A stretch of DNA of 64,000 bases from Cafeteria roenbergensis. Lineage: Eukaryota; Sar; Bigyra; Bicosoecida; Cafeteriaceae. Below are positions 15,631 to 61,395 of the stretch, one piece after another. Under the pieces are notes generated by a model. That model was given only the letters and a program-made list of their open reading frames with translations. It made no database searches and was not told the origin of the DNA. Numbering within the stretch: position 1 is the first letter of the stretch; each line of letters begins with the position of its first letter. The DNA lies in contig VLTN01000059.1 of NCBI GenBank assembly GCA_008330645.1, positions 62,001 through 126,000 of the forward strand. The letters are read 5' to 3'. The position numbers were made by a program, and so were the translations under genes.

Positions 15631-16677
15631 GGGCGCGGTCACCAACCGGGGCCCCTGGGCTCTGGCCGACCAGTGCCGCTCGGGGTCCAGCCGGGCCAGC
15701 GCGCAATCGCGCTCCTCGCCGAGGCTTGGTCGTCGATCGGGCTCGGCCTCCCCGGCTCTGCCGGCAGAGCGCAGCCGGCCAGCACTTGCTTGGCATCGCC
15801 ATCCCTCGTGCTCGGCGGTGATTCCGAGCCAGCGGAGCAGCCGAAGCCACGCGCTCGGCTTGGCGCGCATGGCTTGACGCTTGTGGGAGTGGCAGGCTGG
15901 GACTGGCATGTTGCTGTGCTGGCCGGGGCCTTCCCCTCAAGGCTTGCAGGCGCTCCCTTGGCGACCGGGACTCCTCGCCCACGAGGGCTTAAACCCTGAC
16001 TGTGAGGTCCAGTATCGATCGTGGCAGTCATGACTACCCGTGCCGTTGAGCGGCGTTGGGGTCGGCGCTTGCCTGCGAACTTGGCCAGTGCTTGATTGTT
16101 TCGTGGATATCGCATGCTCGCATCGACAAAATTGCAAGCCCCTGTTCTGCGGGAGGTAGGAGCGGTCGGGTTGCGGCTGCAAGGTGGGGTCAGCACTCCC
16201 AAGGCACCCCTTGCGGACAGCATCGGCGTGGCAACACTTAAGGCGCATAGTTTCGGCTGGGCACTACAAAAGCCATAAAAGCAAGTTTCGGGGCCATTCA
16301 TAACCTTGGGCAACTAGACAGCATCAACTGGAGCAAAAAGTCGTCCCTACTCCGAGCGATGGAATGCTTCCCTTTGGAGATGCGCCACAGGGCCCAAGTT
16401 ATTCCAAGCGCGTCGAGCCCGCACGCTGGGGTCTTTGAGTGCCGCTGGCAATTCGGGAGAGCCACAGCATCCGGGGACGCGTTCAGGCATGGCGGCAGAA
16501 CCAGGCCGTGTGTCCTGTAGCAGGTGCGAAGGCTCCCAACGCTGGCCTGGCTCGGATCGGCTCCTGCATCTGCGAGTCTGCAATGGAGGGCGGAAAACGA
16601 ATTGTTTGGACGGCGCGCAATATTGGCCCTGCCCGTGGTGCGCGTTGTGCACTCGGCGTGAACAGGTTGCAACCGCC
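15631..16677. other. Divergent promoter region between the mitochondrial-type gene and TBCB
   Basis: About 1.05 kb between two divergently transcribed start codons. The left third is as GC-rich as the genes. The stretch from about 16080 to 16450 is visibly richer in A and T than anything else nearby and holds a GCCATAAAA element. Overlapping frames here have no recognisable content. No tRNA B-box (GGTTCGA) or other RNA gene was recognised. Confidence 0.55.
16272..16280 (+). promoter_or_regulatory. GCCATAAAA, candidate TATA-like element
   Basis: The sequence GCCATAAAA occurs here on the plus strand in a locally AT-rich patch. The same nine bases occur on the minus strand about 90 nt before the helicase start codon. 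It lies about 400 nt before the TBCB start codon, so it would need a long leader, a 5'-UTR intron or a different transcript. Confidence 0.3.
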
Positions 16678-18071
16678 ATGGACGCCATGGCCATCGCTCG
16701 CGACATGACTGCAGGGGAGGCCAAGGACGCAGTGCGCGCCTGGGTGACAGGGGCGGACCACCGGCGCTTCGACGAGCTCGCGGACGGGACGGTGCTGTGC
16801 CAGGTCACGCACTCAAACCTGAAGCAGAACATCATTGAGCTGCGGTTCGACCTGCACTCGACGGTCCGCGCCACCAAGAACAACCTCTACACGTACAATG
16901 GGACAAACCGCGAGTTCATGGAGCTCCAGCTCTTCGAAGGGGACCGCCTTGTGAGCCGGTTGGCCGCTGCAGAAAGAATTCCCGTTGGAGGAGCGGCTGC
17001 TCCGGTTCCCGCGCTGCTGCGGCCTCCCCCTCCTCGCAAGACAGCCTCCGGGCTGGCCAGCTCGTGCTTCGGGCCGGGCTTTTTCGGGGCCGAGGGGCGC
17101 GGTCTGCCCTGCGTGGGTCCGCGACGCACGAGCGGTGCAAGCGCCGAACGTTCCGAGTCCGTTGCTCGCGCCCGCGCGCTCCACGCCGCCTATCCCTGCC
17201 TGGCTCCCCGCTCGCAACGCAGATCGCTCGCATGCTTGACGACGACAAGATGCTGGGCTTCTACGGAATGACCCACGGCCACAGGGTGCACGTGGTGGAC
17301 CACGACCCAATGTCCCTCTCCCGCGGCGGCGGCCTGGACGACGTGTCGCAAGTGAAGAAGTACGTCATGAGCGAGGAGGACTACGACAAGCGCGAGGGCA
17401 CGCTGCGCGCGTGGAAGCGCGAGCAGCTCAAGAAGAACCCCCACTTCAAGTACTCGGACGCCCTTCCGGCTAGCGGCAGGGCGGCCGCGGCAGCGGCAGC
17501 GGCAGCCGGCCCCCGCGCCCCGGACGTGGACTTCGAGGATGACACACTCGTAGAGGGCATTGAGGTCGGTGCGCGCTGCAGCATCCGCCCCGGTGAGCGC
17601 CGCGGGGCAGTCGCCTATGTCGGCAAGATCGAGGGCAAGACTGGCTGGTGGGTGGGCGTCCGGTTGGACGAGCCGCTGGGACGCACGGACGGCACCGCGT
17701 CTGGAAAGCGCTACTTCGACGCCGAGCCGGGCTACGCCACCTTCATCCGCCCGACGGGCGTAAAAGTGGGAGACTTCCCGCCCGTTGACGAGGAGCTCGG
17801 CGACCTGGCCGAGGCCAAGGCCGACTCCGCGGCAGCGGCTGGTGCAGCGGCGGCAGCAAGTGCCGCCCCACCCGCGGCGGAGGCAGCTGCTGCGGCAGCC
17901 GGTGCCGAGGCCAAGGCAGAGGACGCTGGCGAGGCTGCGGCCGCTGCGCTAAGCGAGGCGGCAGCGCGGGAGGCTGCCACGGCGAAGCGCGCAGCAGCCC
18001 GACCCTCCGCTCTCCACCGCCGGCCGGGCGATGACGACTTTGCTGATGACGACGACGACGACGAGCTCTGA
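16678..18071 (+). CDS. TBCB: Tubulin-folding cofactor B
   Basis: The exons are 16678-16950 and 17223-18071, giving 373 residues. TBCB captures alpha-tubulin released from chaperonin and, with TBCE, takes part in dimer assembly and disassembly. An N-terminal extension of about 38 residues precedes a ubiquitin-like domain. MELQLFEGDRL joined to IARMLDDDKMLGFYGM, followed by HRVHVVDHDP, aligns with the human MELELYGVDDKF...HVIDH region. DDVSQVKKYVMSEEDYDKR matches the segment that follows the UBL. A CAP-Gly domain (about 207-280) contains YVGKIEGKTGWWVGVRLDEP and GKRYF, with GRTDG in place of the canonical GKNDG. The family's acidic tail is present and ends in DEL, close to the DEI/DEM end that TBCE recognises. 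An Ala-rich linker of about 60 residues between CAP-Gly and tail is extra. The start ATG lies in GCCATGG. Confidence 0.95.
16951..17222 (+). other. Intron in TBCB, 272 nt
   Basis: Donor CTT|GTGAGC and acceptor CAACGCAG|ATC, phase 0. The flanking exons are in different frames, and splicing restores an unbroken ubiquitin-like domain of normal length. The length is not a multiple of three, so retention would shift the frame. Confidence 0.9.
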
Positions 18072-18569: not shown

Positions 18570-21500
18570 TCAGCTCAAACCGTCCAGAGGCGGCACGGCT
18601 CGCAGCCGCGGGAAGAGGCTGTCGAGGTCTCGGGCTCGCGTGCCGGCAAAGACCTTGTCCGGGGAGGTCTGCGAGGTGCGCTCTCGCTCGCTGGGGGAGC
18701 CTGTCAGGAGGAGCCACCCGCCCTTCAAGTTCGGCTCAAGCGCACGAACAGCAGCCACGCCGGCCTCCAGGCTGGCCCAGGTCGCGTCCGTAACAGACCT
18801 GCAAAATGCAGCGTGCTTGGCCGCCGTGAAGCCGCCGGGCGAGACAGCAGCTTCCGTGATGTCATCCCACAAGCCGTCAAGCTCGGCCACAGCCGCGTCG
18901 CTGACCCGCGCCACCACGGCTGCCGCAGAGCTGAGAACGGTGGCCGCAGCGACGCAGCGCAAGAGCGGCCGGCCAAAGGTCCCGCTGCGCGCGAGGGTCG
19001 GGGCAGCAGCCTTGGGTTTGGCGTGTTTGCCCTCCCGACCCTTGGATCGCAGCGGGGCCTTGGCGCCACGGTCAGACGTCCTGGCCTTGCAAAACGCCGC
19101 CACAGCATCCTCCAGCGTTCGGCGAAGCGCGTTGATGCAGCGCATTGCAGCGGGGGTCCAGCACACGCCGAGACGGCAGTTCCTGGAAGGGCTGTCGCCC
19201 TCAAGGGCCACCTCCCACACTCGCCAGTGCGGGCTTCCTGTGCCGGTCGCCCGCACCGCGAGTCCCCGATCGCGAGAAAACAGCACCAACGGAAGGGCAC
19301 TCGCAGCCTCGTCCGGCCACAGCATCGTCGCGCCTCCGACCCGAATGCAGTGGCCATCCGCGCCGGTGAGGGATGCGTCGGTGAAGAGCACCACGCGCTT
19401 CTGAGAGGCCATCGGACCAGCGATTGCTGGGTCCGCGAGCAGGTCAGTCTGGCTGTCAAGAGCTCCTGCACCATCGAAGAAGAAGCGACCAATGGGCGGA
19501 GCGTCGGGGTCACGGTCCCCGGCAAGCTCGCCGGCAGCCCCCGCGAGCTCCAGCGCCGCCGACACCGATCCCTTGCCAAGCTGGAATGCGCAGTACTGCA
19601 GCCCTGTGGTCTGGTGGGGGTTGCTACTGCTGCGAGGGGCTGTGCAATGGACCGCCTTGGCCTCCCTTGCGCGAGCCTCTGCAGGCGATTGCGCCTTCTT
19701 CAGGGCAGCATGAGCCCGGGACCCGACTGGCAGACCCAGCTGCTCCACTGGCGCGTATGCGGCGTTGTCCAGAACCACCGACCGAGCGACACGGGCCTTT
19801 TCGCCTGCTTGCACCTGAGGCAGCAAGTCCTTGGTCAGGCAGCGGTCTTCCAGGCCTAGCAGGACCGCCCGCGCAGGCGAGGCCGGCTCGGTGATGCCAA
19901 AGAAGCGGCCGCCAGGTGAGGCGGTACCGGCTGGCGTGGAGGACCCTCTCAGCGTGGCCCCAACCGAGGGATCCTTGAGCGAGCGCAGCTTTGCCGCCTT
20001 TTTCGAAGCGGCCCCGCCGCGAGCGGCACAGCAGGCCAGAGCAGCCGCATGGGCGCGGTTGATCTCCCACACGTGCGCCCACACGAGCTGCTCGCCGCCG
20101 GCTGGGGCCAGCTTCCCCACGAGCAAGGCCTTGTCAAGCCCCCCCGGCGCGGCCGCCTTGCACATTGCGCTCAGCTCCTCCGAGGACGCGCTGCTGGGAA
20201 CGGCCTTGACTGTGCGCAGACGCACAGCTGCCGAGACCACAGCGGCAGGGAGGGCGTCTTCGGGGACTGAGAAGAGGGCGGCTGCCACCTCGGCCGGGCT
20301 GCCCTTCAGCTTGTTTGACAGGTTGACGGCGGGCGGGGGCGGAGCGGCAGCGGCACTGTCAGCCTCACTTTCCCGCTTTGCCCGCGAGGACAGCGCACTC
20401 TGCAGCGACTTGACGGCTCCAGGCGACAGGGCGGACGCCCTGAACGCGGAGTTGGACTCCGACTCCACCAGCGGCGCTAGGGCTGGAGGCAGCCCGGCAG
20501 CGAGCAAGCCCACAGCAGCCCGTGCAGCCTTGCCTCCAGGCAAAGGGTCCTTGGCCACAGCAGGCACGCCCTCGAACAAAAGCGCTGGCTGAGCGGCGGC
20601 GGGCACGGAGCGGTACAGCTCGCCGCGAAGGGGGGCACCCGGCCCGACTGCCAGGCCAGCAGCGGGGGCAGCTACTGCGGCGGCAGAAGCTGCGCCGGCA
20701 GCAGCGGCGGCAGCTCCGGCCGCGCCTGCGCCACCCGCAGCCGCCTCCGCCGCAAGGAAGCCAGCCGGCAGAACTGTGCTGGCCGTGCGGCTTGGCGTCG
20801 GCGTCCTGCCTCGCTTGTCTTTCTTGGACGAGCCAGGCACGGCGACCAGGGTGTTGTGCCCGAAGGCCGCGCACATGAGCAGGCGCAGGGCATCCAGCGG
20901 CACCTCACGGTGCGGCGCGCAGCCCTCTTCCGCCGCGCCGACGATTTCTCCAAGGACGTCCGACTCGTCGTCAGGGACACCGTGACGCCTCTGGGCGGCA
21001 GGCTCTTCGGCAGCGGCGCTCAGTCGAGCAGGCCGCGCCGCTGAGGCCGCACGACCGGCGCGCGCGCTCGCACGGTGCTGGGGCCTGCGGGCCCCATAGG
21101 CACCACTTGCCACGTCGGAATCGCCGATGCTGGTGCGGGCAAGCGCGCCCTCGGCGCCAACGAGGTTCAGCGCCGTTGCAAGCGAGTACACTGCTGGGAA
21201 AGTTCGCGACCCGCGAGCTCCGCCGCGCGCGGCGGCCAGAGCTGGCTCGAGGGCGCGAGGCGCCACAAGCGCGCCGGCCACGGACCTCCCCGACAGCTCG
21301 GCCAGCGCGCGCGGCATTCGGGCGGCACCGCGCTCCCACAGGCCGTGCTTGTCGAACCACTCCAGCCGCCTCCGCTGCAGGCGGCCGCCCTCCAGCTGCA
21401 CCGCCAGCATCACTCGCATCGCGGCGGCGATGTCCGACCCAGTCCCTCGAGCCAAGGAGTCGCGCGCTGCAGCCGACCGCGCCGCGTTTGTGTTGGCCTC

Positions 21501-24500
21501 CGCAGCCGTCTTGGCCCTGCGGCGGTCCGAGTTGGTGAAGATACGGTCCGATGTTGCCGCCACGACCATCCCAGCCGCCACATCCGCCACACCGAGTGCC
21601 GAGCCAAGGATCGTGCACATGGCATGCGTGGTCGACTCGGGGAAGCTTGCCACAGCGGTGCCGAGCGGGGTCAGTCTGGCATCGTCGCTGGGTGACTCCA
21701 GGCTGCCGATGGCGAACAGCCGGCCCAGCGCGGCGTCAATGTTGGCCGTGTCGGGCGGCTGCGGCGCGTCGGCAAGGATGGAGCGCATGCTGCCCTCCAG
21801 CCCGAGCAGGCGGAGCTGCAGGATCGTCTCGTCCAGAGGCAGGCGGCAGATCTCGGGCTCGTCGTGGGCGGGCATGCAGTTCGCATGGAAAGCACGAGTG
21901 TACAGGCGAAACACCCGCCCCGGAGCGAGTCGCCCCGCCCGGCCCTTGCGCTGCGTCGCCGACGCCTGAGACCCGAACGTCTTGACGAGGGCCGTCGTGC
22001 CTCGTGACGGCAGGAAGCGCAGCGACTTTTGCTGCCCGAGATCCACGACGGACGTGAGCCGCGGCAGGGTGAGGGACGTCTCCGCGATGTTCGTGGCCAC
22101 GACGATGCGGCGCTTGGAGCCCCGCCACGTGGACGACGCTTCCGGCGGCGGTCGGCGGGATGGGGTGCCAGCGCTCCACTCCCCGTCCACCTCCGGAGCA
22201 GCATCTGCCAGGTAGGCGTCGTCGGAGTCGAAATCGTGCTCGTTCGTGGCCAGGGACGTGTCCTCCTCCGTGCCCTGCGAGTGCAGCATCACCACCTGCA
22301 TGGTGCGGCGACGGCTCGAGGGCACCACCGAGGGGTCGTTGATGGCCGTGACGATGGCCTCAATCTCGGGCACGCCCGGGGCAAACACGAGGGTCGTCTC
22401 CCCAAGCTTGGTGACCTCGTCCGCAAGGCTGGCAGCAAGCGTCTCGGTCTTGGCGTCTGTGGGCGGCGAAAAGGACAGGAAACGCTCCATCCCTTGTTCA
22501 GAGCGCTTCCCCGGTGCGGGCGGGCACCCCCGCGCTGCGGCCCGCTCGTCCAGCTCGCTCAGCTGCTTCTCGAGCCGGTCCATGCTGTTGCCCAGAACTC
22601 GCGTGGCCGTACCGAAGCGTCGGGAAGTGTGCGGCGCCTGCTCCTCAAGGTCGCCCAGGAAGAACTCGTCCACCTCGAACCGCATGGTCCCCACGCTCAG
22701 AGTCACAGGGGCGGGGAGAGGGCTCGGCGGGCAAAAGTAGTCGCTGAACAGCTTCGCCTCCAGCGTGGCGGACATGATCACGACTCTAGGGCAGCTCCAC
22801 CCCTGGAGAGGGACCAGTGGCGCGCCTCCGGCCGCCTCTGCTGCCGCCATGTCTCGTGCCCAGAAAGGGCGGAGAAGCCGTCGCAGGACCAAGCAGAGCA
22901 CATCGCACTGGACGCTGCGCTCGTGGACCTCGTCAACGCAAATCAAGTTGTGACTCTCGCCGAAGGCCTCCTTGTTGTGAACGAGCCACGTGACCAGCCA
23001 GCCGGTGGTGGCGAACGTAACCTGGGTGCTGCCGGAGGCCTCAGCATCGCCACCGATGCGAAAACCAATCTCCTCTCCCACCCGGGTGCCCCGCTCCTTG
23101 GCCACGCGGCCCGCCAGGCCGGTGGCAGCGATGCGGCGGGGCTGCGTCACCACAACGTGCTTGGGGCGCCAGCCCGGCTGGTGGGTTTCCTTTATCCACC
23201 TCGCAGCCTCCAACAGCAGCTGCGGCACCTGGGTGCTCTTTCCCGACCCCGTCTCCGCTCCCAGCACGACCACGGGCGACGTCAGCACGCCGCTGACGAT
23301 TCTGGCGCTGAAGTCGCGGATGGGAAGGCTCGCGCTCACGCTGCCTGCCCGAGGCTTGGGGAACTCGGAAGGCAGGCGCGCCCACTCGTCCGCCAGCAAC
23401 CTGGCACCGCCACGGCCGACATGCGGCTCCGTCGCGGCGTGCGAGGGGCGGACAGCGCTCGTTGCCGCTGCAGCCACGCAGCTGCTGTCCCCGCCCGCAC
23501 CGCTTGCGGCTGCGGCTGCACCATCCGCACCTGCCGAACCAGCTGCGCTCTCCGGATTGCTGTCGAGGTGGCTCACGCCAGCAGCGGCCGCGCCAGTCGA
23601 TGCAGCGTGTCCCGATTCCAGTTGCAGCGCGAGGCGAGAAGATGGATCCTTGTTCAGCACACAAGCAGGCCACGGGAGCGAGAGGGGGGGAAGCGCGTGC
23701 ATGGTCGACACGATGGCTTCTCCGGACACGAGCGAGGTCGACGGCGGGCGCTCCCAAGCGTCCCGGGTGCCGATGGTCAGATGCGCAACAGCGCGCTCGA
23801 AGGGGACAGCACAGGCTCGGGCGTTGACGTGAAGCAGCGCCCCAATGACGCGCGACGCGTGGCCCAGATCCAAGGCACGTGCTTCGCCCGCATCATCGCC
23901 AGCAGACTCCTCACGTTCGACTGCATCATCCTCGAAGTCATCGACACCCTGAGACTCGTCTGCCGTTGCTTCTGCGGCAGCGCTCGCAGCAGCAGCCCCG
24001 GTGCTGGCTCGAGCTGACTTCGCCAGAAGCGGAGGAACCCACGACTTCCCAGGGCGTGACATTCCCTTGGGGAAGGTCACCTCAGGCCCGTGCTTCAGAT
24101 GCCCCTTGCTCACAAACACGGCTGGCACTTTTGCAAGCGAGGCCAGCCTCTGCAGGGCAGCCATGCCGGTCCCAATTTTCTTGGCCGAGCAGGATGCCGC
24201 CCACACCTTGAGCGGCAGCGAGGCGCTCTTGAGAACCTGCTGCTGCCAAAGAAGGGCCTTGCGAACCGAGTCCACCGTGACGTGCACCTGCCCCACAACC
24301 TTGGCGAAGTGCGCAGACTCCTGGCCGGCCCGTTTCAGCAGCTCAACGGCGGCTGCGTGGGAGCAGGCAGCCTCGGTTGCGAACACAAGAATTCCGCCCT
24401 TGCGAGTGGGCATGACGCCGTGCGCCGGGTTGGATGGCAGAATTGCCGGCTGGCTGGCAGCCGCGGCGTGCTCGTTGGTCGCAGGTGGGATGGCAGCGCC

Positions 24501-27500
24501 TCCTCCTCCGCTGGCTGGCATTGGGCGGCAGGTCTCTGGGAGAGTTGCCTCCGGGTCGACCTTTCCCTTGATCACCGCGAGGGCGATGGCAGGCAGGCCC
24601 CGCTTGACGAAGGCGGCTGTTGCACTCTGCAGTGCGTGCTCGTGAGCGTCCTGGTTAAACGCGATGGCCCATGCAGACATCCGACCCTTGGGCAGGGAGC
24701 ACCGAGTCGCCAGGGCGTGCCGCGCCCAGAACAGCGCGTGGATGTGGTGAGGCTCCGACAGGGCCACCCGAGTTGCCTGCCCGGCGCGCGCTCCTGCACC
24801 CTTTGCCGTGATCACGTTGCGGATCTCCTCGATGGCCTCCTTGCGTGAGGCCGAATCGGCCAGCGCAACAACAACAACGGAGCTCGTCTTGGCGGCGACG
24901 ACCGAAGCCAAAATCGCACCGCGCCGGCTGACTGACTCGTGAGCAGCGGGCAAGGCACCAGGCCAGTCGGTGACTGCCGAGGTGGCTCCTGCTCCTGCCG
25001 CGCTCGCCGCTCCTGCCTCGCTCGCCGCTCCGGCCGCGCTCGCCGCTCCGGCCGCGTCCGCACTCGTCGATGCCGCCAGCAGCCGTTGCGTGTAAATACG
25101 AGGCACAGGGCTCCGGAACTTTCCCAGAGCACGCACCAGGCCGCGCACTTGCTCCGAGGGCACGCGCACCAAAATCATCGCAGCTCTCGACAGCGGCTTC
25201 CCCTTCAGCTGGGCTTGCATGCCGGGAGTCACACGAACGATGCTGCGGATTGGGGCAGTCACGATGGCAGGAGCTGCTGCTTTGACGGGCTCCTGCCTGA
25301 ATGCCGCAGCGAGAGCTGGCAAGTCCCCAAAGCCCAGAACAATCCGGTACAGCGGGCAGGCAGCCGGCTGACTCGGGATGGTGCCCGCGGGAAGCACAAG
25401 GACGCTCGTCTCTCCCTGGCAAACCAGCTGCACGCAGGGCCACTGGCTTTTGGCAGAGAATGCGGCGGCATGCGTCGAGACCACGGCCTTGCTGGCCGAG
25501 AACCAGACAAGCCAGCCAATCGACGGCACGGGGAATGCGGCGTCTGGAAGACACACGGCAGCCCTCACGAGGTGCGGCAGCAACTGCGCGGGCACTGGCT
25601 GGAGCTTGACCAACCCGACTGCCCCGCACCTTGCTGGGTCCACCGCGCTCAACTCAGCGGCATGGCGGGCTCGCGTGGCGAGGCTTTCAACAGCCTTGAT
25701 CACGTCCGCGGCTCCGACGGAAGCGTCGGTCCCAATGAGCAGTGCGGAGTAGCCGCTCTCGGCCCCGGGCAGCACGCAGTCGCTGATGTTGTGCCTGAGC
25801 CGAGACGTCACAGCCTCGGCCTGCACGGAGTTCAGCCCCTGAGGGCTTGGCCCGAGTCCTCCGCGTGCGGGCCCAGCGGACGCAGCGGGCGCAGCGGGCG
25901 CAGCGGGCGCAACGGCGGCGCCGCGGCCAGGTCCAGGCGCCGCGGCAGTGCCACCGGCGCCACTTGCCGCCGATGCGTCGACCTCGCCGGCACGCCGATC
26001 GAACTTGGCGCACGCTTGCGCCAGTGCAAGCGCCAAGTCCCCCTGCCAGCCAAAGCGGTCGCGCACCAGCTGCGGCTGGGCGAATCCATCCGTGCTGTCG
26101 ATGACGCGGCCGATTGCATCCATGCACGAGAGCAGCGTCTGCAGCGCCCTTGCCTCCGAGTCGGCGAGGGCCACAGTCTCGTCGCGCCGGTAGGAGGCCA
26201 CGGTGCTGGCCGCAAAGGATGCCGCGGCAACGTCTCCCGAGGCTGCTGCGTCGAGCAAGAGGGCTGCGCCAAGCACCGCCGCCTCCACCAGGTTCGCGGC
26301 CTGGAGCTCCTCGCCAGTGTACACGGCCTCTCCCGCTGCGGCAAGCTCGGCCAGCGCGCGGTGGCGGATGAACGCCGCGGCAGAGAGCGCCTGCGCCGTG
26401 AGGGTGGCTGGCAATTGGCCAGGGTCGGCGACCCCAAGCGACTTGAAGCACTCGGTGAGCCCCGCGTGCGCGATAGCGAAGCGACCCTCGTACGTCGATA
26501 CGCTGGAAGGCCAGGTGTAGCGGCCGGTGGATCCGCGCGACGCGTGGTGAGTCCGCACAGCGGCTGGCCCGCTGCTGTCTTGGATGCTGGCAGCGGAGTA
26601 CAGTTCCAGCAAGCTCGCGATGGCCCCTGAGCTGCTCGGCCAGCCGCCCACCGGAGGTCCCGCCTGGCCCTTTCCCGCCATCGAGAGCGCAACCTTGATT
26701 CCCGCGTAGCCAGCCAGGTCAAGCGGCGAGCCGCGATTCCACTCCGGAAGCCAGAGCAGTGCAGGCAGGCAGGCCACAGCTGCCGCCACGCTGGCGCGGT
26801 CGTCAGGCGGGAGTTTAACCAGGGCGCCGAGAGCAACGCTGCGCACCGGGTTGGCGCAGCGGACGAGAAACGGAGTTGGGGCCTTGAACAGAGGGCGCAG
26901 CGTGGTCGGAACGGCGGACAAACCCGCGAGCCCTAAGAGCGCGCCATCGATCGGCCGGGTCGCCACGCCTTGCGATAGGTCCTCCGCGTCGAGCGGGGGA
27001 AGCCGGGAGCCACGCGAGACGGCTAGGCCTGCTGGAGCCAAGTGCCCCCCAAGCCGGCAAAGCACCACGCAGCCGAGGGCGTCGAGCCGGTGGTCAGTGC
27101 GGGTGGCGCAGAAGCGGGCTGCGCCAACGGCCGCGTCCCAGTCCGGCCACACCATTGTGAGGTCCTGAGTGGCTGCCGCCCAAGTCAACGGCGAAGCGGG
27201 GCTGCCGGTGAGGCGACGCCGTGGCCGGAACAGCTTCATGCGCTCGGTCCAAGGCTCGCAGCGGCCCGGCAGCGACTGCATTCCGCCAGCACACGCTGCA
27301 AGGTCAACGAGCTGCTGGGGTTTGTTGCGCAGGATCTCGCCAACCACCGCCCTAGCCGTGGGCTCGTCACAACCGGATGCCGAGTCGCTCCAAAGGCCCT
27401 GCGTCACCGTCGCGAGGGCTGCGCCCTCTACGGCGCCCAGTGCCCACATGAAGTCAGAGTCAGCAGGCGCCACTGGGATCCTGATGGACCGGTCGCTCGC

Positions 27501-29210
27501 TCGGATGGCGTTTGTGGACGCGGCCCACTCCGACACAGCTGCGAGGGCGAGGCCGCGGCGCCACATCCAAGCCACCTGGTCGGGCTGCGTTGGGGTGTGG
27601 GGGTTGACCAGAGTCGCGAAGCCGTGCGAGCATTCCTCGGCCGCAGCCACGAGCTGATCCCATGTGCTTTCGCCACGTTCCGCTGCACCGTGAAGCGCTG
27701 AGATCGCAGACAACTGCCCCAGCAGCAGCGCGGCCTCGGAGCAGGCTTCGGTGGGGCCTGCGGACGATGTGTCGGCGATGCGGAACCGGCGGACCTCGTC
27801 CACATCGAGAAAAGTGGCGCTCTCGCTGCCAAGTACTCTCCAGACAGCCATCTCCAGCGCGAAGCACCGGCGTCCGGTTGCTGCTGACGCGTGGCCGCCG
27901 GTTGCAGCGATTGCATCGTCGTCTGCGCCCGCATCGTCGTCCTCCTCCTGGGTAGAGGCCTCGGACTCGGCATCGCCAGCGTCCGCTTTGTCGTCGCCGT
28001 CGCCGGCTGGCTTCAACGGCACCCTGATCTTCCAGCCACGAGCAGTGGCTTCACCCATGCGCATCACAGGGGGCATCAGCAGCCCTGCTCCCCGCAGCAG
28101 GGGCATCGTCTCGTCAGTCCCAGCCAGCATGCAGGCCTCCACGAGGAGCCGGTGGGATGCGCTCAGCAGCGCCTCTCCCCCCAAGCCGAACTCCTCCTTC
28201 ACGAAGTCAAGAATGCCCAAGCCTTTGCAGAGCGACACGGCATCAACCAGCAAGGGCTCTGCCGCCCCCCGGGCCAGCGCGTCTTGCTCGTCGAAGGCGG
28301 CCTGGATGGGCACTCGAAGCACGTCCATGGCGGCCGCCACGACCTCAGGACGGCGCCTCCCTCGTGAAGGTCCGCTCGCCGGGGCCAGAGCAGGTGCGGC
28401 AACCACGCGCTGGGCGTCTGCTCCCGAGGTCATGCCCGACTGGCACATGGCCAGCACGAGGCCAGGGTTCCGGACGAACTGCACCGCAGGGGGTTGCGCC
28501 AGCGACCACAGCGGGATCAGGGTGGAGCCCCGGATGACAGCCAAGTCCGAATCGCGAGAGATGACGGCAGTGGGCTGCACGTCCGAGGCAAGGAGGTCCA
28601 TTGCCCTCCACGTCTTGGGGTCGCAGCACGCCGCGAGCAGCCCGTCCGCCTGGCCGAACGCCTGGACGCACTTGACCCCTGCGACCCGCGTTCGGGTGCT
28701 GGCGCCAGGCGGCCCAACTAGAATTGCCTGCAGCAGGCCTTCCTTGCACGCGCTCATGAGGCGGGCGGCTCCCGGGCGCGCCGCTTTGGCCAGCCGGTCC
28801 CTGGCTTCCGCGCTCGGAGCGCTTTCCCCGTCTTCAAGCAGCCGGGCCGCCTCGTCCAGGGCCGAGTTCACCTCCTCGTCCCGGCTTTGCATGGTCCGCC
28901 CATCGGAGCGCGCCTTGACTTGCGGCGGCGTGTTGCCGTCGAACACTGCTGCAACAACAAAAATGTTGTGCCGCACCGCCCACGCCTCGACGGTGGCGCG
29001 GGTGAGGGCGTAGATTGCGGGCCCGTCGCCACCCGCAAGGTCCGGTGTAGGCCGAGCAAAGGTTGCCCGGGCAAGGGCCAGACGTTCTCGCACAGTGTGG
29101 GCGAAAGCAGGCCCATCTAGCACCGCGAAGGTGGGTGCGTCAGTCCTGGCAACGCGGGCAAGCGCTCGTCTCCGGCGCTGCACGACCGACTGCAGCGTGA
29201 ATACGCCCAT
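18570..29210 (-). CDS. Asteroid/XPG-like nuclease domain fused to a DExH-box RNA helicase
   Basis: A single open frame of 3,546 codons. Residues 1-380 resemble the Asteroid branch of the FEN1/XPG-like PIN superfamily. MGVFTLQSVV starts like MGIRGLMSFV of ASTE1. VLDG (Asp32), VFDG (Asp91), FGQADG (Asp189), ISRDSD (Asp220, Asp222) and LAGTDE (Asp366) fall where that family has its metal ligands and GND motif. The helicase core begins near 1970: motif I GAETGSGKST (Lys1991), Ia TQPRRIAA, II DEVH (Asp2093), III SAT, V ATNIAETSLTL, VI QRKGRAGR near 2418. An HA2-type region (LGLEGSMRSILADAP) and a C-terminal OB-fold-like part (about 3220-3370) follow, as in DHX29/DHX36/DHX57-type RNA helicases. The 1,600 residues between nuclease and helicase are not recognised. 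Expected action: ATP-driven remodelling of RNA or RNP, possibly with attached cleavage. Tandem with the ferlin gene upstream; convergent with TBCB. Confidence 0.88.
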   Translation of the reverse strand: MGVFTLQSVVQRRRRALARVARTDAPTFAVLDGPAFAHTVRERLALARATFARPTPDLAGGDGPAIYALTRATVEAWAVRHNIFVVAAVFDGNTPPQVKARSDGRTMQSRDEEVNSALDEAARLLEDGESAPSAEARDRLAKAARPGAARLMSACKEGLLQAILVGPPGASTRTRVAGVKCVQAFGQADGLLAACCDPKTWRAMDLLASDVQPTAVISRDSDLAVIRGSTLIPLWSLAQPPAVQFVRNPGLVLAMCQSGMTSGADAQRVVAAPALAPASGPSRGRRRPEVVAAAMDVLRVPIQAAFDEQDALARGAAEPLLVDAVSLCKGLGILDFVKEEFGLGGEALLSASHRLLVEACMLAGTDETMPLLRGAGLLMPPVMRMGEATARGWKIRVPLKPAGDGDDKADAGDAESEASTQEEDDDAGADDDAIAATGGHASAATGRRCFALEMAVWRVLGSESATFLDVDEVRRFRIADTSSAGPTEACSEAALLLGQLSAISALHGAAERGESTWDQLVAAAEECSHGFATLVNPHTPTQPDQVAWMWRRGLALAAVSEWAASTNAIRASDRSIRIPVAPADSDFMWALGAVEGAALATVTQGLWSDSASGCDEPTARAVVGEILRNKPQQLVDLAACAGGMQSLPGRCEPWTERMKLFRPRRRLTGSPASPLTWAAATQDLTMVWPDWDAAVGAARFCATRTDHRLDALGCVVLCRLGGHLAPAGLAVSRGSRLPPLDAEDLSQGVATRPIDGALLGLAGLSAVPTTLRPLFKAPTPFLVRCANPVRSVALGALVKLPPDDRASVAAAVACLPALLWLPEWNRGSPLDLAGYAGIKVALSMAGKGQAGPPVGGWPSSSGAIASLLELYSAASIQDSSGPAAVRTHHASRGSTGRYTWPSSVSTYEGRFAIAHAGLTECFKSLGVADPGQLPATLTAQALSAAAFIRHRALAELAAAGEAVYTGEELQAANLVEAAVLGAALLLDAAASGDVAAASFAASTVASYRRDETVALADSEARALQTLLSCMDAIGRVIDSTDGFAQPQLVRDRFGWQGDLALALAQACAKFDRRAGEVDASAASGAGGTAAAPGPGRGAAVAPAAPAAPAASAGPARGGLGPSPQGLNSVQAEAVTSRLRHNISDCVLPGAESGYSALLIGTDASVGAADVIKAVESLATRARHAAELSAVDPARCGAVGLVKLQPVPAQLLPHLVRAAVCLPDAAFPVPSIGWLVWFSASKAVVSTHAAAFSAKSQWPCVQLVCQGETSVLVLPAGTIPSQPAACPLYRIVLGFGDLPALAAAFRQEPVKAAAPAIVTAPIRSIVRVTPGMQAQLKGKPLSRAAMILVRVPSEQVRGLVRALGKFRSPVPRIYTQRLLAASTSADAAGAASAAGAASEAGAASAAGAGATSAVTDWPGALPAAHESVSRRGAILASVVAAKTSSVVVVALADSASRKEAIEEIRNVITAKGAGARAGQATRVALSEPHHIHALFWARHALATRCSLPKGRMSAWAIAFNQDAHEHALQSATAAFVKRGLPAIALAVIKGKVDPEATLPETCRPMPASGGGGAAIPPATNEHAAAASQPAILPSNPAHGVMPTRKGGILVFATEAACSHAAAVELLKRAGQESAHFAKVVGQVHVTVDSVRKALLWQQQVLKSASLPLKVWAASCSAKKIGTGMAALQRLASLAKVPAVFVSKGHLKHGPEVTFPKGMSRPGKSWVPPLLAKSARASTGAAAASAAAEATADESQGVDDFEDDAVEREESAGDDAGEARALDLGHASRVIGALLHVNARACAVPFERAVAHLTIGTRDAWERPPSTSLVSGEAIVSTMHALPPLSLPWPACVLNKDPSSRLALQLESGHAASTGAAAAGVSHLDSNPESAAGSAGADGAAAAASGAGGDSSCVAAAATSAVRPSHAATEPHVGRGGARLLADEWARLPSEFPKPRAGSVSASLPIRDFSARIVSGVLTSPVVVLGAETGSGKSTQVPQLLLEAARWIKETHQPGWRPKHVVVTQPRRIAATGLAGRVAKERGTRVGEEIGFRIGGDAEASGSTQVTFATTGWLVTWLVHNKEAFGESHNLICVDEVHERSVQCDVLCLVLRRLLRPFWARDMAAAEAAGGAPLVPLQGWSCPRVVIMSATLEAKLFSDYFCPPSPLPAPVTLSVGTMRFEVDEFFLGDLEEQAPHTSRRFGTATRVLGNSMDRLEKQLSELDERAAARGCPPAPGKRSEQGMERFLSFSPPTDAKTETLAASLADEVTKLGETTLVFAPGVPEIEAIVTAINDPSVVPSSRRRTMQVVMLHSQGTEEDTSLATNEHDFDSDDAYLADAAPEVDGEWSAGTPSRRPPPEASSTWRGSKRRIVVATNIAETSLTLPRLTSVVDLGQQKSLRFLPSRGTTALVKTFGSQASATQRKGRAGRLAPGRVFRLYTRAFHANCMPAHDEPEICRLPLDETILQLRLLGLEGSMRSILADAPQPPDTANIDAALGRLFAIGSLESPSDDARLTPLGTAVASFPESTTHAMCTILGSALGVADVAAGMVVAATSDRIFTNSDRRRAKTAAEANTNAARSAAARDSLARGTGSDIAAAMRVMLAVQLEGGRLQRRRLEWFDKHGLWERGAARMPRALAELSGRSVAGALVAPRALEPALAAARGGARGSRTFPAVYSLATALNLVGAEGALARTSIGDSDVASGAYGARRPQHRASARAGRAASAARPARLSAAAEEPAAQRRHGVPDDESDVLGEIVGAAEEGCAPHREVPLDALRLLMCAAFGHNTLVAVPGSSKKDKRGRTPTPSRTASTVLPAGFLAAEAAAGGAGAAGAAAAAAGAASAAAVAAPAAGLAVGPGAPLRGELYRSVPAAAQPALLFEGVPAVAKDPLPGGKAARAAVGLLAAGLPPALAPLVESESNSAFRASALSPGAVKSLQSALSSRAKRESEADSAAAAPPPPAVNLSNKLKGSPAEVAAALFSVPEDALPAAVVSAAVRLRTVKAVPSSASSEELSAMCKAAAPGGLDKALLVGKLAPAGGEQLVWAHVWEINRAHAAALACCAARGGAASKKAAKLRSLKDPSVGATLRGSSTPAGTASPGGRFFGITEPASPARAVLLGLEDRCLTKDLLPQVQAGEKARVARSVVLDNAAYAPVEQLGLPVGSRAHAALKKAQSPAEARAREAKAVHCTAPRSSSNPHQTTGLQYCAFQLGKGSVSAALELAGAAGELAGDRDPDAPPIGRFFFDGAGALDSQTDLLADPAIAGPMASQKRVVLFTDASLTGADGHCIRVGGATMLWPDEAASALPLVLFSRDRGLAVRATGTGSPHWRVWEVALEGDSPSRNCRLGVCWTPAAMRCINALRRTLEDAVAAFCKARTSDRGAKAPLRSKGREGKHAKPKAAAPTLARSGTFGRPLLRCVAAATVLSSAAAVVARVSDAAVAELDGLWDDITEAAVSPGGFTAAKHAAFCRSVTDATWASLEAGVAAVRALEPNLKGGWLLLTGSPSERERTSQTSPDKVFAGTRARDLDSLFPRLRAVPPLDGLS
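25007..25069 (-). repeat. 18-bp in-frame repeat in the helicase linker
   Basis: About three and a half copies of an 18-bp unit (gctcgccgctccggccgc and variants on the plus strand) encode Ala/Gly/Ser-rich GAASAA-type blocks within the unrecognised middle region of the nuclease-helicase protein. A separate 9-bp run near 25878-25915 encodes AAPAAP. Confidence 0.6.
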
Positions 29211-29543
29211 GAAAGCAGCAAAACGCCCCCTTCTTGCGACGCAGCCGTCCCAGCTTCCTCCAAGTGCTCAGAATCGGCAAGTGACCAAGAAATCCAAATT
29301 TTATGGCTGCCCAGTTTGCCGTGGCTCTGCCTTGAGACGAGAATATTCAAGCAACCTTCGAGCTGCAGGGAGCGAAACCGTGGAGTGGCGGCACGGCAGC
29401 TCCCCCCCGCCCCCCTCAACCCCCGACGCGGACCGATGCGCGAGCCAGGCAACGCGTGGGCTCGCGGAACGAATGCATTGCTTTTGGGTGCATGCTGGCA
29501 CGGAGCGTGCCCTCGCGCAACGCATTCCACACAGGACGCGCGA
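29211..29543. other. Tandem intergenic spacer upstream of the helicase gene
   Basis: This lies between the ferlin stop codon and the helicase start codon, both on the minus strand. It includes the presumed helicase promoter with a GCCATAAAA element. No hydrophobic segment is encoded in any minus-strand frame here, which argues against a missed terminal transmembrane exon of the ferlin. Confidence 0.6.
29296..29308 (-). promoter_or_regulatory. AGCCATAAAATTT, candidate TATA-like element of the helicase gene
   Basis: On the minus strand AGCCATAAAATTT lies 86-98 nt upstream of the helicase start codon, inside an otherwise GC-rich region. Its first nine conserved bases (GCCATAAAA) recur upstream of TBCB. 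Position and local AT-richness suit a core promoter element; function is inferred. Confidence 0.4.
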
Positions 29544-32500
29544 TCACATTGTGGCACAGCAGTGTCCACCTGCACGCTTGCGGCGCACGGCCTCAATCTG
29601 GCGCAGGATGGCGCCAGGGTCCTTCAAGTAGGGCTCGGCGTTCGGCTCCTCTCGGCCAAGTCCAGGGCGCTTGCCGCCGTTCTCCTTGGCGAACGCCACG
29701 CTGGCTGCCAGAGGCACAAGCTCCACACTCACGAGCACCGCGGGCTGGAGCGAGTGGGGCTTGAGCGCCTCCTTGGCGTGGTCAAGTGCCTCGTCGGCGT
29801 CACCAGAGTCTGGCGACCTTGTCGGGTCGCCCGCGGCCGCTTCGGCAGCGGCTTCAGCAGCAGCGGCTTCCGCCGCCTCTGCCTCCTCCTCGTCCCTGTG
29901 CTTGGCCAGCGAAATGGGAACCCACGCCATGGCCTTCTGAGCGTTGGACACGCCTGGGTAGCCCACGCCCGGGACGACGAGGTTGCTGGATTGCGGGTGC
30001 TGGGAGCAAATCTTGACGGCACGGGTAATGTCGATGATGCAAGCACCGCGCCCTCGCCAGCGAGTCGCGCCGCACGAGCGCGTCGTGTTTTGGCCACACG
30101 CGTCCATCTGCGTCACAGGGATCTTGGCAAGCCCGCCACCGCAGCAGCAGTTGCAGCACCCCGTCGCGCCAAGGGCGCACGCCCGCACGCAGCCAAGTTT
30201 CTTCGACTCCACCGCCTCCGCGTGCTCCCGCGTGTAGGGGCGGGGCGCGTCGCCCTCGCACACCTCGAGCATGAGGGGGCCCGGCACGGGCATGCGGCCC
30301 CAGCGCTGGTGCGTGACCGGGAAGCTCATGCGCCAGTTGAAGGCGGCGTGCGTGGCCTGCGGGAGCACCCTGTCCTCCGGGCGAGGGCCGCCCCCGCTCG
30401 GCCACATGCTCTGCGGAAGGTAGCGCGCGGCCGACTCCTCCGCAGCAGCCTCGGCCGCCAAGTACTCTTGCTCTTCGGCGGTCGGGGGCGTCTCCGCCGC
30501 AGCCGCGCCGCCGGCATCGGTCTTGCCGCCCGCCGATGCCTTGGCGCCGCCGGCCGCAGGAGAAGCAGCAGACTGTGCCGACACGGGGGGCATTCCCGGC
30601 GAGCGTGCCGCAGATCCGGAAGCAGCCGCCGGCGTGCCGGCAGCGCTGGCAGCGCTGGCAGCGCCTGCTGCCGCGTCCCCGCCTTGCGCAGCAGCTTCCG
30701 CCGCGGGTTGTGGCCGCCTCGGCTTGTCCTCCCTCTTGACACCGTTGCGCTTGTCTTCGGCCCGCCAGTGCAAGGCGTCGGCCACCTTGGCGAAGAAGAG
30801 AGGGGGGACGAAGCCCATCTCGCCAATGGTGGCGCAGGCCGAAGCCGCAAAGTCGTTTTTCGCGTCCACGCCTCGCTTCACCTCGATGTCATCGGCGAGC
30901 TCCGCGGCCTCCCCGCACGGAATCGCCACGCCCGTGCTCGTGCGCTGCTCACCGGGGTACTCCACAAGGTCGTGGCCGCCCGAGGCCTCGGCGAGGGCAG
31001 CCACCGCTCGGTAGTCGAAGCTCGGGTCGTGCAGCCACCCGCGCACGAAGAACGGCACGTAGCCGCCCTTCCTGCCCTCGGGCGTCTTGGACCAGCCAAG
31101 GGCGTCCATGCCGCGGACTCGCCACACGGTCACACGGAGCTCCATGGCAACGGGCGGCGGAGGGGCGATGACGAGCGGGGGGTTCGCCGCGGCCCGCTCG
31201 GCCGTGAGCATGTCGCACCACATCTGCAGCGAGCCGGCCGGGCTGCCGTCGAGCCCGCGCAGGAGGCGCGTCTCGATGGGCATCGGCGGCAGCTTGGTCG
31301 GGTTGCGGCCATGGGCCATGGACTGCCAGGCCGGGTGCAGCCAGCGGTGCTCCAGGTCGATGATGCAGCCGCCGATGAACTCGATCATAGGCTTGGCGCC
31401 ATGCGGGTCAACCTGCAGGCCCTCGGCAGCGGCCGCCGCGTTTGCTGCGGCCGTCGCCTGCCCCGCCACGCTGGCCCCCATGCCAGCCGCCTTGCGCGTG
31501 GCAGCGCGGGCCTCCGCGCCCATCTCCTTGGCCTTGCCGGGGCGGCGCTCGCCCTCGCCGCCTTCGCCCACCCCCGCAGCTTCGTCGGCGCCAGCTGCAG
31601 GGTCCTCGTCCTCCTCGGGCTCCTGCTTTTGCGGGCGCTGCCGGAACAGCTCCACCACGAGCAGCGCGGTGTCCGGCAGCACGCAGTCGAGCTCCAGGCA
31701 CTCGTGCAAGTCCGCCTCGGACGCGTCCTTGTCGCCCCCGGCGCCGCCCTCTGCCCGTCGCACCTCGAACCCGAACTGCCGGCCTGTGGTGCCACGGCGC
31801 ACCAGCACTGGACGGTGCCCGCTGCCCTGCACGCTCTTGTCACGCAGGTGCACCCGGGCAAAGACGGCGTCTTCGGCCCGCAGCGGCGCCTTGCTGGGCT
31901 TGTGGAACATTCCGGAGGCGTCCACGTACGGTGCATCGTCGGGCAAGTCCTCGGGCTTGAAGATGAGGCCGCGGCGGCGCAGAGCGCGCATCCTGGCGAC
32001 CTCGCTTCGGGCGCGCGCCTTGTCTCGGGCGCTCTGGCCGTCCTTGTTCATGATGCTGCCCTTGGCAGTCAGAGCGCCCTCCTGGAAGGCGTCGCCCAGG
32101 CGCCGGGCCGTGCCGGCCACCGCCGTCCCTGCCGACTGCGCCTCCGCCTGCAGCTCCTTGCGGCGGGCGTTGCCTTCGTCCACGCGCTTGAGCGCGCTGC
32201 CGATGGCTTTGATCCGCTCCTCCTCGGAGCCGTACAGCTTCGTGTCGATCTCCTCGTTCCGGAAGAAGGACTCGGCCGTGAACCGGGCAGTGGTCAGGTA
32301 CACTCGCACCGTGACCTTCTGGCGGCTGCCCGCCAGGTCCAGAATGCGGCGCACCGGGGCGGGAGGGCCGGCAGACATGTCGATGGTGGGCTTCTTGCCT
32401 GCGTCCCGCATCATCCGCTGGCCGCGGTTCAGCGGCTCCAGGTCGCGCCAGCGCGGGTCGGGGTCCGTCACGGAGATGTGCGCGCGAATCAGGCCGGACT

Positions 32501-35500
32501 GGCGGTAGCCGGCAGGGTTGGCCGAGCCGGTGGACCGCGCAGCCGCAGACCTGTACACCGCAAAGTCCTTGAACACGGGGTTGCCCGACGGGAGCAGGAT
32601 GCCAAGCGCGCAGCGCAGGACGCTGCGCCGGCGCATCCAGGGCGGCAGGTCGCGGGGCACGTCTTCGCGCCGAACGTCGAGCGCCTCCAGCGCGGAGAGC
32701 TCGAACACGGAGGCGTCCATGCGCAGCAGGCCGTTTCGCAAGTTGGAGATGAGGCCCCCAGCAGTGGACCTGATGTGGTGCCGCGTGTTGCGGATGCGCC
32801 GCACCAGCTGGCGCATCTCGCGCGCCTCTTGCTGCGCAGCAGTCAGCACGGGTGCCTTGCTCTTCGCCCTGAGGTGCGAGAACGGAATCATGGACGAGAG
32901 CCCGAGCTTTTGGCCCGCCGGGGTAGGGTCCTCGTCGGCGTCGCCCGCCGCGGCGCCAGCGGCCGCGTCACCCGCTTCGCCGTCCCCGTCGCCGCCACTG
33001 CCTTCGCCGCGGGCGACGGTGCGGTCGGGAACGGGCTTGGCCTTCTGCGCGTCGATGGACGCGCGGCGCCCCCTGAAGGTCGTCTTCAGCCTCTCCTCCT
33101 CCGCGGCAGACACAGCCAGGGCGCCGCCTCCCACGCGGCCGCCGACCTCAACGGAGCCGGCCTCGGAGCCCGGGGCCACGGCCGTGGTCGCCGCGGCTGT
33201 TGGCGAGGCCACGTCACCGATGCCCCCTTCCACGCCGCTGCCGGCCGGGCCTGCCGCAGCCACTGCGTCGGGCCCCCTGATTCCGGGGCTGAGCGGCAGC
33301 ACGCTGGATCCGAGGGCCTTGACGCCGCGCATCATGCTGAGGATGTGCTTGCCGCCGAGGAAGCGGCTGCGCTCCGCCTTGAGCTCCGGCTGCACGGACT
33401 CTCTCCCCTGCTTGCGGAGCTTGTGCTTGCGGAAGGCCAGCTGCAGCTTTCCGGCAGCGATGTGAGGCGTGCCGGCCCTGCCGCCCGCGGCGCCCAGCCC
33501 CGACGGGGACTGCGATGAGGCCTGGCCCGAAGCCTGCGCCGCGGCCATCTGCCGGCGCTCCGTGGCGGTCCAGAGCGAGCGAGCGGCGGCGGCGGCCGCG
33601 GCGGAGCTCGAGGGCCGCAGAGCCATCGGGCCCTGGTGCTGGTCCTCCTCCGCACCCCGGCTCCACTCTCCACCGTCGATGGCCCACTGGCCCTCCCGCT
33701 CGTCGTGCAGCTGCTTCTGGAACTGCTCCGCTGTGAGGAAGGGCAGCGCGTCCAGCGGCAGAGGCACCGAGGCCTCGCCCACGGTCAGCCCGCTCTGCTG
33801 TCCGCCGCCGAACAGGCCGCCCCCCGTGGTGAGGTGCGCGTCGTCGATGAGGGTCCAGTGCAGGCGCGGCGCAATGCGGTCCACCCACTTGTGCATCACG
33901 GTGGGGATCGTGGCGTCCTTGGCGAGCTCCGCGTCGCGGAACCGCTTCGCCTGCCGCTCGGCTCGGGTGCGCTTGCTCTTGTCCTTGAAGCGGCTCGCGG
34001 GCCTGGTGGCTGCCTTGCCGTCGCGGCGGCTCTTGCGCCGCGCGCGCCTGGCGTCGCTGGCCTCCTTGCCGGACTTGCTCCTGCGGCTGCCGCGGCTGCC
34101 AGTCGAGCGGCGCGACGATGACCGCTGGGCCCACCGCTGGCCGTCGCGAGCCGGTCCCCCGAACGCGACCGATGAGGCCACGCTGCTGGAGCCGTCGCTC
34201 TCTTCGGCCGCGACCTCGCTCATCACCTTGCGCGCGTCGGTCAGCGGCAGAGCCGCCGACAGCACCGTGCTCGAGCAAAAGTAAGACCGCCCGGCGTACA
34301 AGGCCGCGATGTGATCGAGGCCGGCGTCGGACTCGGGCATGGCCGGGAGGAGGTCGCGCGCCTTCGCGTCGGCCGCCACCTCCGCCTGCGTGAACCAGCG
34401 GGGCGGCTGGGCGGCGCCGCCCGCGGCGGCAGCAGCAGGCGCTTGCTCCGCTGCTGCCCCGTCAGAGTTGCCGCCAGCACCGGCTGCAGCGGCGGCCGCC
34501 GCCGCCGCCCGGGCGTCCAAGGCTTTGCGGAGCTGCGCGGCCGTCTTGCCCTGGCGGGTTTTGTGGTTTCCGTGCGCGCGCGGCTGGTGGCCAGCGGCCG
34601 CGGCCATGGTCAGGGTCGGGCCGGGCACGGGCGTCTTGGAGTCGGACGCGCGCGAGATGCCGAGGGCGGACGCCACTCCCGAGAGGAAGCCCATGAGGGC
34701 GTCTCGCAGGCTCGCCTGCTCCTGCGGCGCTGCGGCAGGGCGCACCATCAGGGTGCTCGGCTTGAACCGCGGGTTCTCCTCGTCGGGGTTCTGGTCCGTG
34801 AGCTGGATCCGCATGCGCGGCGCGCCAAGGACGGACAGCGGCGCCGACGGCGAAGTCCCGAGGGCGAAGGGAGCCTGGATGCAGCGCGCGTGAAGGATAA
34901 CGATGCGGACAGCGACCTCGCGGACCTGGTGCCGCAGCGGCTCGGGCATGGCCATGGGGATGGGGACGCGGCCGCCCACTGTGACGCCGTCCTTCTGGGC
35001 GTCGTTCATGACGCGGCGAATGAGCTGGACGCCGATGAGGACCTCGGGCCGCACCGGCTCGGACACGCCCACGAGGCGGTCGGCATCGATGTCGGCCGAG
35101 GCGGCCGTCGCGAGCTTCTCAATGTCCAGCGACTCCCAGTCCACGCGGGTGGGGTTGTCGGACGGCCTGTGCTGCCGGGCGGCCAGCTGAGACGAGGGCG
35201 GAATGATGCCTTGCATGCCGCCCGCCCCCGACGCAGCAGCGCCCGCCTCGCCTTGAGCCTGGCTGCCGGGCGCGACCAGACGCGCCACGTCTTCCGGGTC
35301 AAAAGTCATGCCAGTCTGGCTGAGGGCCAGCGCCAGGGCGGCGACCTCGAAGAAGCTGGGACGACGGCCCGAAGCCTGGGCGCTTTGGAACTGTTGCACC
35401 GCCCTCCGGGCGTTCACCGCCATGAGCGCTCCGGGGCGGGAGCGGGCATCCCGGGCGTGCGGCGGAAGCGTGGAGTCAAAGTCGAAGGCGGCCTCCGTGC

Positions 35501-61364: not shown

Positions 61365-61395
<31 letters not shown>

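Follow-up and report, generated by a model that had tools for sequence, protein, structure and literature searches.

An XPG/FEN1-like N-terminal domain and a DExH helicase in a single open reading frame of Cafeteria roenbergensis

The window analysed here, a stretch of 64,000 nucleotides from Cafeteria roenbergensis contig VLTN01000059.1, contains on its reverse strand an uninterrupted open frame (18570-29210; ATG at 29210, stop at 18570) of 3,546 amino acids, in which an N-terminal region matching the XPG/FEN1 superfamily is followed by a DExH helicase. With a probability of roughly one half, this frame would represent one gene whose product joins an XPG/Mkt1/Asteroid-like module to a helicase of the DHX29 group and, as we infer, would act on cytoplasmic RNA. 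An initial annotation of the same DNA, made from the letters alone, had placed a nuclease domain and a helicase in this frame, and both parts do lie within it between the ATG and the stop, in a frame that is largely coding (109/117 windows, see below). A natural fusion of this kind would tie RNA unwinding to the Mkt1/ASTE1/FAM120 class, which is still poorly understood, and would make the function of an Asteroid/Mkt1-like domain testable within a single protein. The surprise is limited, since nuclease-helicase fusions are already known (PhoH2, Dicer and WRN). All features of the protein described below are on the reverse strand, and their coordinates are those of the window.

Motifs and putative metal site of the N-terminal domain

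The motifs from which the nuclease domain had been proposed, MGVFTLQSVV, VLDG, VFDG, QADG, RDSD and LAGTDE, were located at residues 1, 30, 89, 187, 219 and 362, respectively. An ordered motif pattern derived from the family, which was drawn up after the sequence was known and which permitted its Q, fitted 9 of 200,000 shuffled N-termini. The window has 342 Met starts with an open frame, and the single one that fitted was the start of the 18570-29210 frame. In-frame stops lie close upstream of this ATG, and the first start codon after the in-frame stop gives an MG N-terminus, as is found in 5/5 of the aligned family sequences.

All seven metal-site columns were aligned in a six-sequence alignment and six of the seven were acidic (D32, D91, D189, D220, D222 and D366), the exception being a glutamate-to-glutamine replacement at Q187. 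Both the MAFFT and the hhalign alignments place D32 of VLDG (29112-29123), D91 of VFDG (28935-28946; followed by PPQVK) and D220 and D222 of RDSD (28545-28556) as putative metal ligands. In the same two alignments QADG (28641-28652) falls with D189 on an acidic ligand and with Q187 in the place of the invariant glutamate (E150 of EXO1). The putative last ligand, D366 of LAGTDE (28110-28127), is placed by the MAFFT alignment and lies beyond the hhalign range. The protein resembles EXO1, FEN1 and GEN1 in its N-terminal MG and in that the seven metal-site columns align and follow in the same order, and differs from them by the change of E to Q at 187 and by large insertions. EXO1, FEN1 and GEN1 belong to the XPG-family nucleases, which are mainly known as DNA enzymes, and from what is known of FEN1 the loss of one ligand of seven might slow cutting or abolish it.

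The N-terminus could instead be an XPG/Mkt1/FAM120-type arm that binds RNA or protein and has lost all or nearly all catalysis, in which case the protein would be a regulator of translation or stability and no nuclease. We regard this as a serious though tentative alternative, and a scaffold is almost as likely as a cutting arm. It would fit the replacement of the invariant glutamate by Q187, and within the same class Mkt1 partners the stress-granule protein Pbp1 and FAM120A is itself a stress-granule protein (PMC12345631, excerpt). Retention of aspartate in six of the seven metal-site columns would, however, be unusual if the site were dead.

The helicase and the continuity of the frame

Judged by its sequence, the region of residues ~1960-2560 is a DExH RNA helicase. 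The motif set claimed for it (I, Ia, II (DExH), III, V and VI) is present in order, with ETGSGKST at residue 1986, TQPRR at 2022, DEVH at 2093, SAT at 2147, ATNIAE at 2372 and QRKGRAGR at 2420. A first RecA domain with motifs I, Ia, II (DEVH) and III (residues 1961-2173; 22692-23330) was delimited from PDB alignments and motifs, and a second with motifs IV, V and VI (residues 2270-2440; 21891-22403) from the PDB alignment and from Pfam, in which Helicase_C scored above the curated cut-off and DEAD below it. Among the best 60 of 63 PDB matches of the helicase part, DHX29 was first (175.9 bits, E 1.3e-50), narrowly ahead of Spindle-E (175.7) and a putative splicing factor (168.6), with many more DExH proteins below these three. 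When the whole protein was the query, Spindle-E came first (162.1) and DHX29 third (156.3). The motif II segment DEVHERSVQ is shared letter for letter with DHX29, where Spindle-E has DEVHERGQE. These results hint that the helicase belongs on the DHX29/TDRD9 side of the DExH class, with a lead over other families of a few bits. The window protein has its helicase core in common with DHX29 and the related DExH helicases Spindle-E/TDRD9, DHX9 and DHX36. DHX29 also resembles the window protein in having a long unique N-terminal region ahead of the core; it carries N-terminal UBA-like and dsRBD domains there (PMC8682770, excerpt), whereas the window protein has the nuclease-like domain instead. Pfam scans of the complete protein and of six pieces of it gave neither a UBA-like domain nor a dsRBD, and the DHX29 matches were confined to the helicase part.

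The initial annotation had also listed HA2 and OB-fold-like parts. For the first the signals were mixed: the alignments with DHX29 (PDB) and Spindle-E continue into a winged-helix/HA2-like region at residues 2441-2570 (21501-21890), but Pfam HA2_N stayed below threshold there (14.7 bits, cut-off 21). The OB-fold-like part (residues 3180-3440; 18891-19673) found no support: Pfam gave no OB-fold match, a PDB search with residues 3268-3546 gave no credible match, the alignment with the DHX29 C-terminus was no better than shuffles (240/500 reached its score) and an OB profile scored 17.1, below the 18.6 reached by the highest of 200 shuffles. The sole point in favour of the fold is that the claimed region was the top one of 24 protein tiles (17.0) against the OB profile. 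The window protein differs from DHX29-type helicases in that an OB fold was undetected.

Between the N-terminal domain and the helicase lie residues 430-1060 (26031-27923), which have no credible Pfam match and lie where Mkt1/ASTE1/FAM120 proteins have their long C-terminal half, a low-complexity Ala/Gly/Pro linker (residues 1071-1130; 25821-26000), a middle module without a Pfam match (residues 1110-1735; 24006-25883) and a second low-complexity linker directly ahead of the helicase (residues 1871-1930; 23421-23600). In total, low-complexity stretches were found at residues 401-440, 951-990, 1071-1130, 1371-1420, 1871-1930, 2701-2740 and 2801-2910. A comparison of residues 701-1000 with the C-terminal half of FAM120A was reached by 2/200 shuffles, but this was one of 38 tests and ASTE1 in the same region was reached by 113/200, and the resemblance is therefore not counted as support. 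Residues 1571-1856 gave no credible match in the PDB. The pattern used for H-x-T-x motifs fitted twice, at HVTV (residue 1643; 24273-24284) and HLTI (residue 1810; 23772-23783), in or beside the middle module. A 2H-phosphoesterase domain at residues 1570-1860, to which these two motifs pointed, was considered and is rejected for now: the CNPase score was reached by 136/200 shuffles, and in a test with archaeal LigT (4/200 shuffles) motifs were not aligned to motifs.

Coding signal along the frame was scored with a codon table for which five further long frames of the window, taken to be genes, served as training set. The scoring used 117 overlapping windows of 60 codons each; the 18570-29210 frame came out highest of the six frames in 109 of them, and the eight in which it did not lead start at residues 721, 1381, 1741 (a tie), 1771, 2701, 2731, 2911 and 3061. 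As four of these (721, 1381, 1741 and 1771) fall between the claimed parts, the junction is the weaker coding stretch, although the score of the frame itself was at or above zero in windows 1381, 1741 and 1771. The signal is weak at residues ~1740-1940, directly ahead of the helicase; in an overlapping scan the score fell to 0.03-0.07 bits per codon within residues 1761-1940 and a reverse frame outscored it at residues 1761-1820. Across residues 1721-1980 the score was nevertheless never below zero, and the frame led in all windows of that stretch other than 1741 and 1771. Among intergenic controls, three of five stretches scored below zero in every window, including throughout both stretches that flank the gene, and some pieces of the other two (45171-47451 and 15910-17063) scored above zero.

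The frame might alternatively cover two adjacent genes, a nuclease-like gene and a DExH helicase gene, which are expressed separately and whose joint frame is open by chance. Chance open frames are common in the window owing to its high GC content (107 frames of at least 200 aa). The two linkers, the low codon signal at residues 1761-1940 with the reverse frame ahead at 1761-1820, the missing lead in windows 1741 and 1771, and Met1837 as a possible internal start would all suit such an arrangement. Two genes nonetheless appear unlikely, as codon scores at or above zero over residues 1721-1980 contrast with scores below zero throughout the flanking intergenic stretches. In addition, there are two A/T runs of at least 8 in the 64 kb, one of which lies upstream of the first ATG, and none is found ahead of the helicase. 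The run in question, AAATTTTAT at 29296-29304, precedes the ATG by ~90 bases and is a possible promoter element. On these sequence criteria 18570-29210 is most simply read as one gene, with the junction as its weakest point.

Profile comparisons of the N-terminus

No XPG family of Pfam matched residues 1-420, and a search of the N-terminus against the PDB gave no credible match. When provisional sequences were used as a yardstick for Pfam, human ASTE1 passed XPG_N by 3 bits and failed XPG_I_2 and XPG_I, and FAM120A gave zero matches. Pfam thus barely recognises either of these two proteins, and its silence on residues 1-420 says little. The XPG_I_2 model likewise had no match in 3 archaeal genomes and 14 control genomes, a result that carries no information.

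Profile-profile comparison was made with hhalign and a profile of EXO1, FEN1, GEN1, RAD27 and ASTE1, to which FAM120A was added as a sixth sequence in variants. The FEN1 and EXO1 sequences agree fully with PDB chains, GEN1 departs from its PDB counterpart at 2/225 residues, and the RAD27, ASTE1 and FAM120A sequences are provisional. The five-sequence profile matched residues 30-232 with a score of 43.9 (E 1.5e-5, probability 79), pairing VLDG, VFDG, QADG and DSD with the profile, and the best scores in controls were 22.9 in 400 shuffles, 21.2 in 64 tiles of neighbouring proteins and 14.5 in 13 tiles of the rest of the same protein. Scores remained above all 200 shuffles when ASTE1 was removed (33.6), when EXO1 was removed (23.7) and when FAM120A was added to give all six sequences (32.7). 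A profile of 30 archaeal FEN1 sequences together with the five sequences reached 34.3, whereas the highest of 200 shuffles scored 23.1. For the archaeal FEN1 sequences alone the score was 23.6, which the top one of 200 shuffles matched, and for an asteroid-only profile of the two provisional sequences ASTE1 and FAM120A it was 19.9 and was reached by 5/200 shuffles. The best of six single-sequence partners was EXO1 (20.4).

With hmmsearch and the five-sequence profile the signal was weak: residues 1-420 ranked first of 341 entries at E 0.013, the complete frame reached E 1, and one shuffle in 1,000 outscored the real sequence. In pairwise comparisons of residues 1-400, the number of shuffles (n = 300) that reached the real score was 0 for EXO1, 1 for FEN1, 3 for ASTE1, 4 for RAD27 and 21 for GEN1. 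AlphaFold2 without an alignment gave uninformative, low-confidence models (mean pLDDT 39.7 for residues 1-420 and 35.6 for residues 1-262).

The profile comparisons support the view that residues 1-370 (28101-29210) form a divergent XPG/FEN1-superfamily (PIN-like) domain, in which residues 30-232 are covered by hhalign and the part beyond 232 by the MAFFT alignment. The profile search of residues 1-400 that had been proposed in the initial annotation was thus negative with the XPG models of Pfam and positive by profile-profile comparison. The assignment to the Asteroid branch made there was supported at the level of the superfamily (0/400 shuffles) and unsupported at the level of the branch, for which the asteroid-only profile was within reach of shuffles and EXO1 was the best partner. 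As the result varies with the profile used, and EXO1 contributes most to the score, the XPG superfamily is supported and the branch is not. EXO1 and GEN1 match the archaeal FEN1 profile, unlike the window N-terminus, which has no convincing match to it; the provisional ASTE1 sequence is likewise too divergent for this profile and scored even lower (17.5). The N-terminal domain would stand at about the same distance from FEN1 as ASTE1.

It is quite improbable that the N-terminal motifs are a chance resemblance and that the protein is no more than a DExH helicase extended by a long unique region: the silence of the Pfam XPG models and the shuffle-level scores of the archaeal FEN1 and asteroid-only profiles would agree with this, but the mixed profiles were reached by 0/400 and 0/200 shuffles and the archaeal FEN1 profile gives the provisional ASTE1 sequence still less than the N-terminus.

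Known systems, proposed function and neighbouring genes

It has been proposed that Mkt1, ASTE1 and FAM120 form a single class of Rad2/XPG proteins, which includes RNA regulators as well as nucleases (PMC12345631, excerpt). The window protein is like this class in that a divergent XPG N-terminus precedes a long stretch in which Pfam recognises no domain, and differs from it in that the asteroid-only profile was not significant. To our knowledge, Mkt1/ASTE1/FAM120 proteins carry no helicase.

DExH helicases are mostly paired with separate nucleases. Dicer has a DExH-type helicase and an RNase III in one chain, and WRN is another nuclease-helicase fusion. Bacterial PhoH2, with a PIN nuclease and a PhoH helicase, likewise carries a nuclease and an RNA helicase in the same chain (PMC7824862, excerpt). 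The fusions in PhoH2 and Dicer presumably arose independently of that in the window protein, as other nuclease and/or helicase families are involved. Pfam matched no RNase III, PAZ or dsRNA-binding domain in the whole protein or its six pieces. With pieces of the protein, the N-terminus and the XPG alignment as queries, no confirmed relative was found in viral or prokaryotic contig collections, and word matches on titles and the starts of abstracts in the open-licence literature retrieved no description of an XPG-DExH fusion.

DHX29 binds 40S subunits and is needed for initiation on structured mRNAs (PMC8682770, excerpt). The helicase of the tethered protein proposed here would translocate on structured RNA, possibly in contact with the ribosome as DHX29 is, and would hand single-stranded or forked RNA to the XPG-like module. 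This module may bind the RNA and, if its altered metal site is still functional, might cut it slowly or in a structure-specific way. The likely role of such a protein would be in post-transcriptional control of RNA, for instance in the decay of mRNA, in quality control linked to the ribosome or in clearing foreign RNA, and not in DNA repair. Coupling of unwinding and cleavage, which the initial annotation had suggested, is put forward here as a hypothesis. It is doubtful, and we consider it unlikely, that the protein goes as far as combining a DHX29-like, ribosome-linked helicase with its own active XPG nuclease into which unwound mRNA is fed directly, which would amount to single-chain mRNA surveillance or antiviral decay outside the RNase III (Dicer) lineage.

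A defence enzyme analogous to Dicer, whose helicase would sense viral dsRNA and whose XPG-like domain would degrade it, is very unlikely: both dsRNA and a baculovirus induce Asteroid in the silkworm, where its knock-down leads to more virus (PMC10298989, excerpt), but a dsRNA-binding domain was absent from the Pfam scans of the whole protein and its six pieces and the Pfam domains of the scanned neighbours (WW, P-type ATPase, CAP-Gly, C2, PAS and histone deacetylase) are unsuggestive of defence.

No tRNA and no Rfam family was found in the window. The Pfam domains of the neighbouring genes point to a eukaryote. The host genome of Cafeteria burkhardae has been termed 'high-GC' (PMC8547959, excerpt). 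On the side of the helicase, a frame on the forward strand at 17064-18071 encodes a protein with a CAP-Gly and a ubiquitin-like domain (Pfam), which we take to resemble tubulin cofactor B, and a 1,702-residue frame at 8926-14034 on the reverse strand is P-type ATPase-like. A strong AT skew (0.30-0.66) was observed at 4001-7000, within a 2,749-residue frame with WW domains. On the side of the N-terminal domain, a 5,208-residue open frame (29544-45170, reverse strand) has a C2 domain and, below threshold, a match to PH, and a 3,561-residue frame (47452-58137, forward strand) has PAS domains and a TmcB-type TPR region. The 1,761-residue frame at 58422-63707 (reverse strand) carries a strongly matched histone deacetylase domain at its residues 1091-1380 (310.9 bits).
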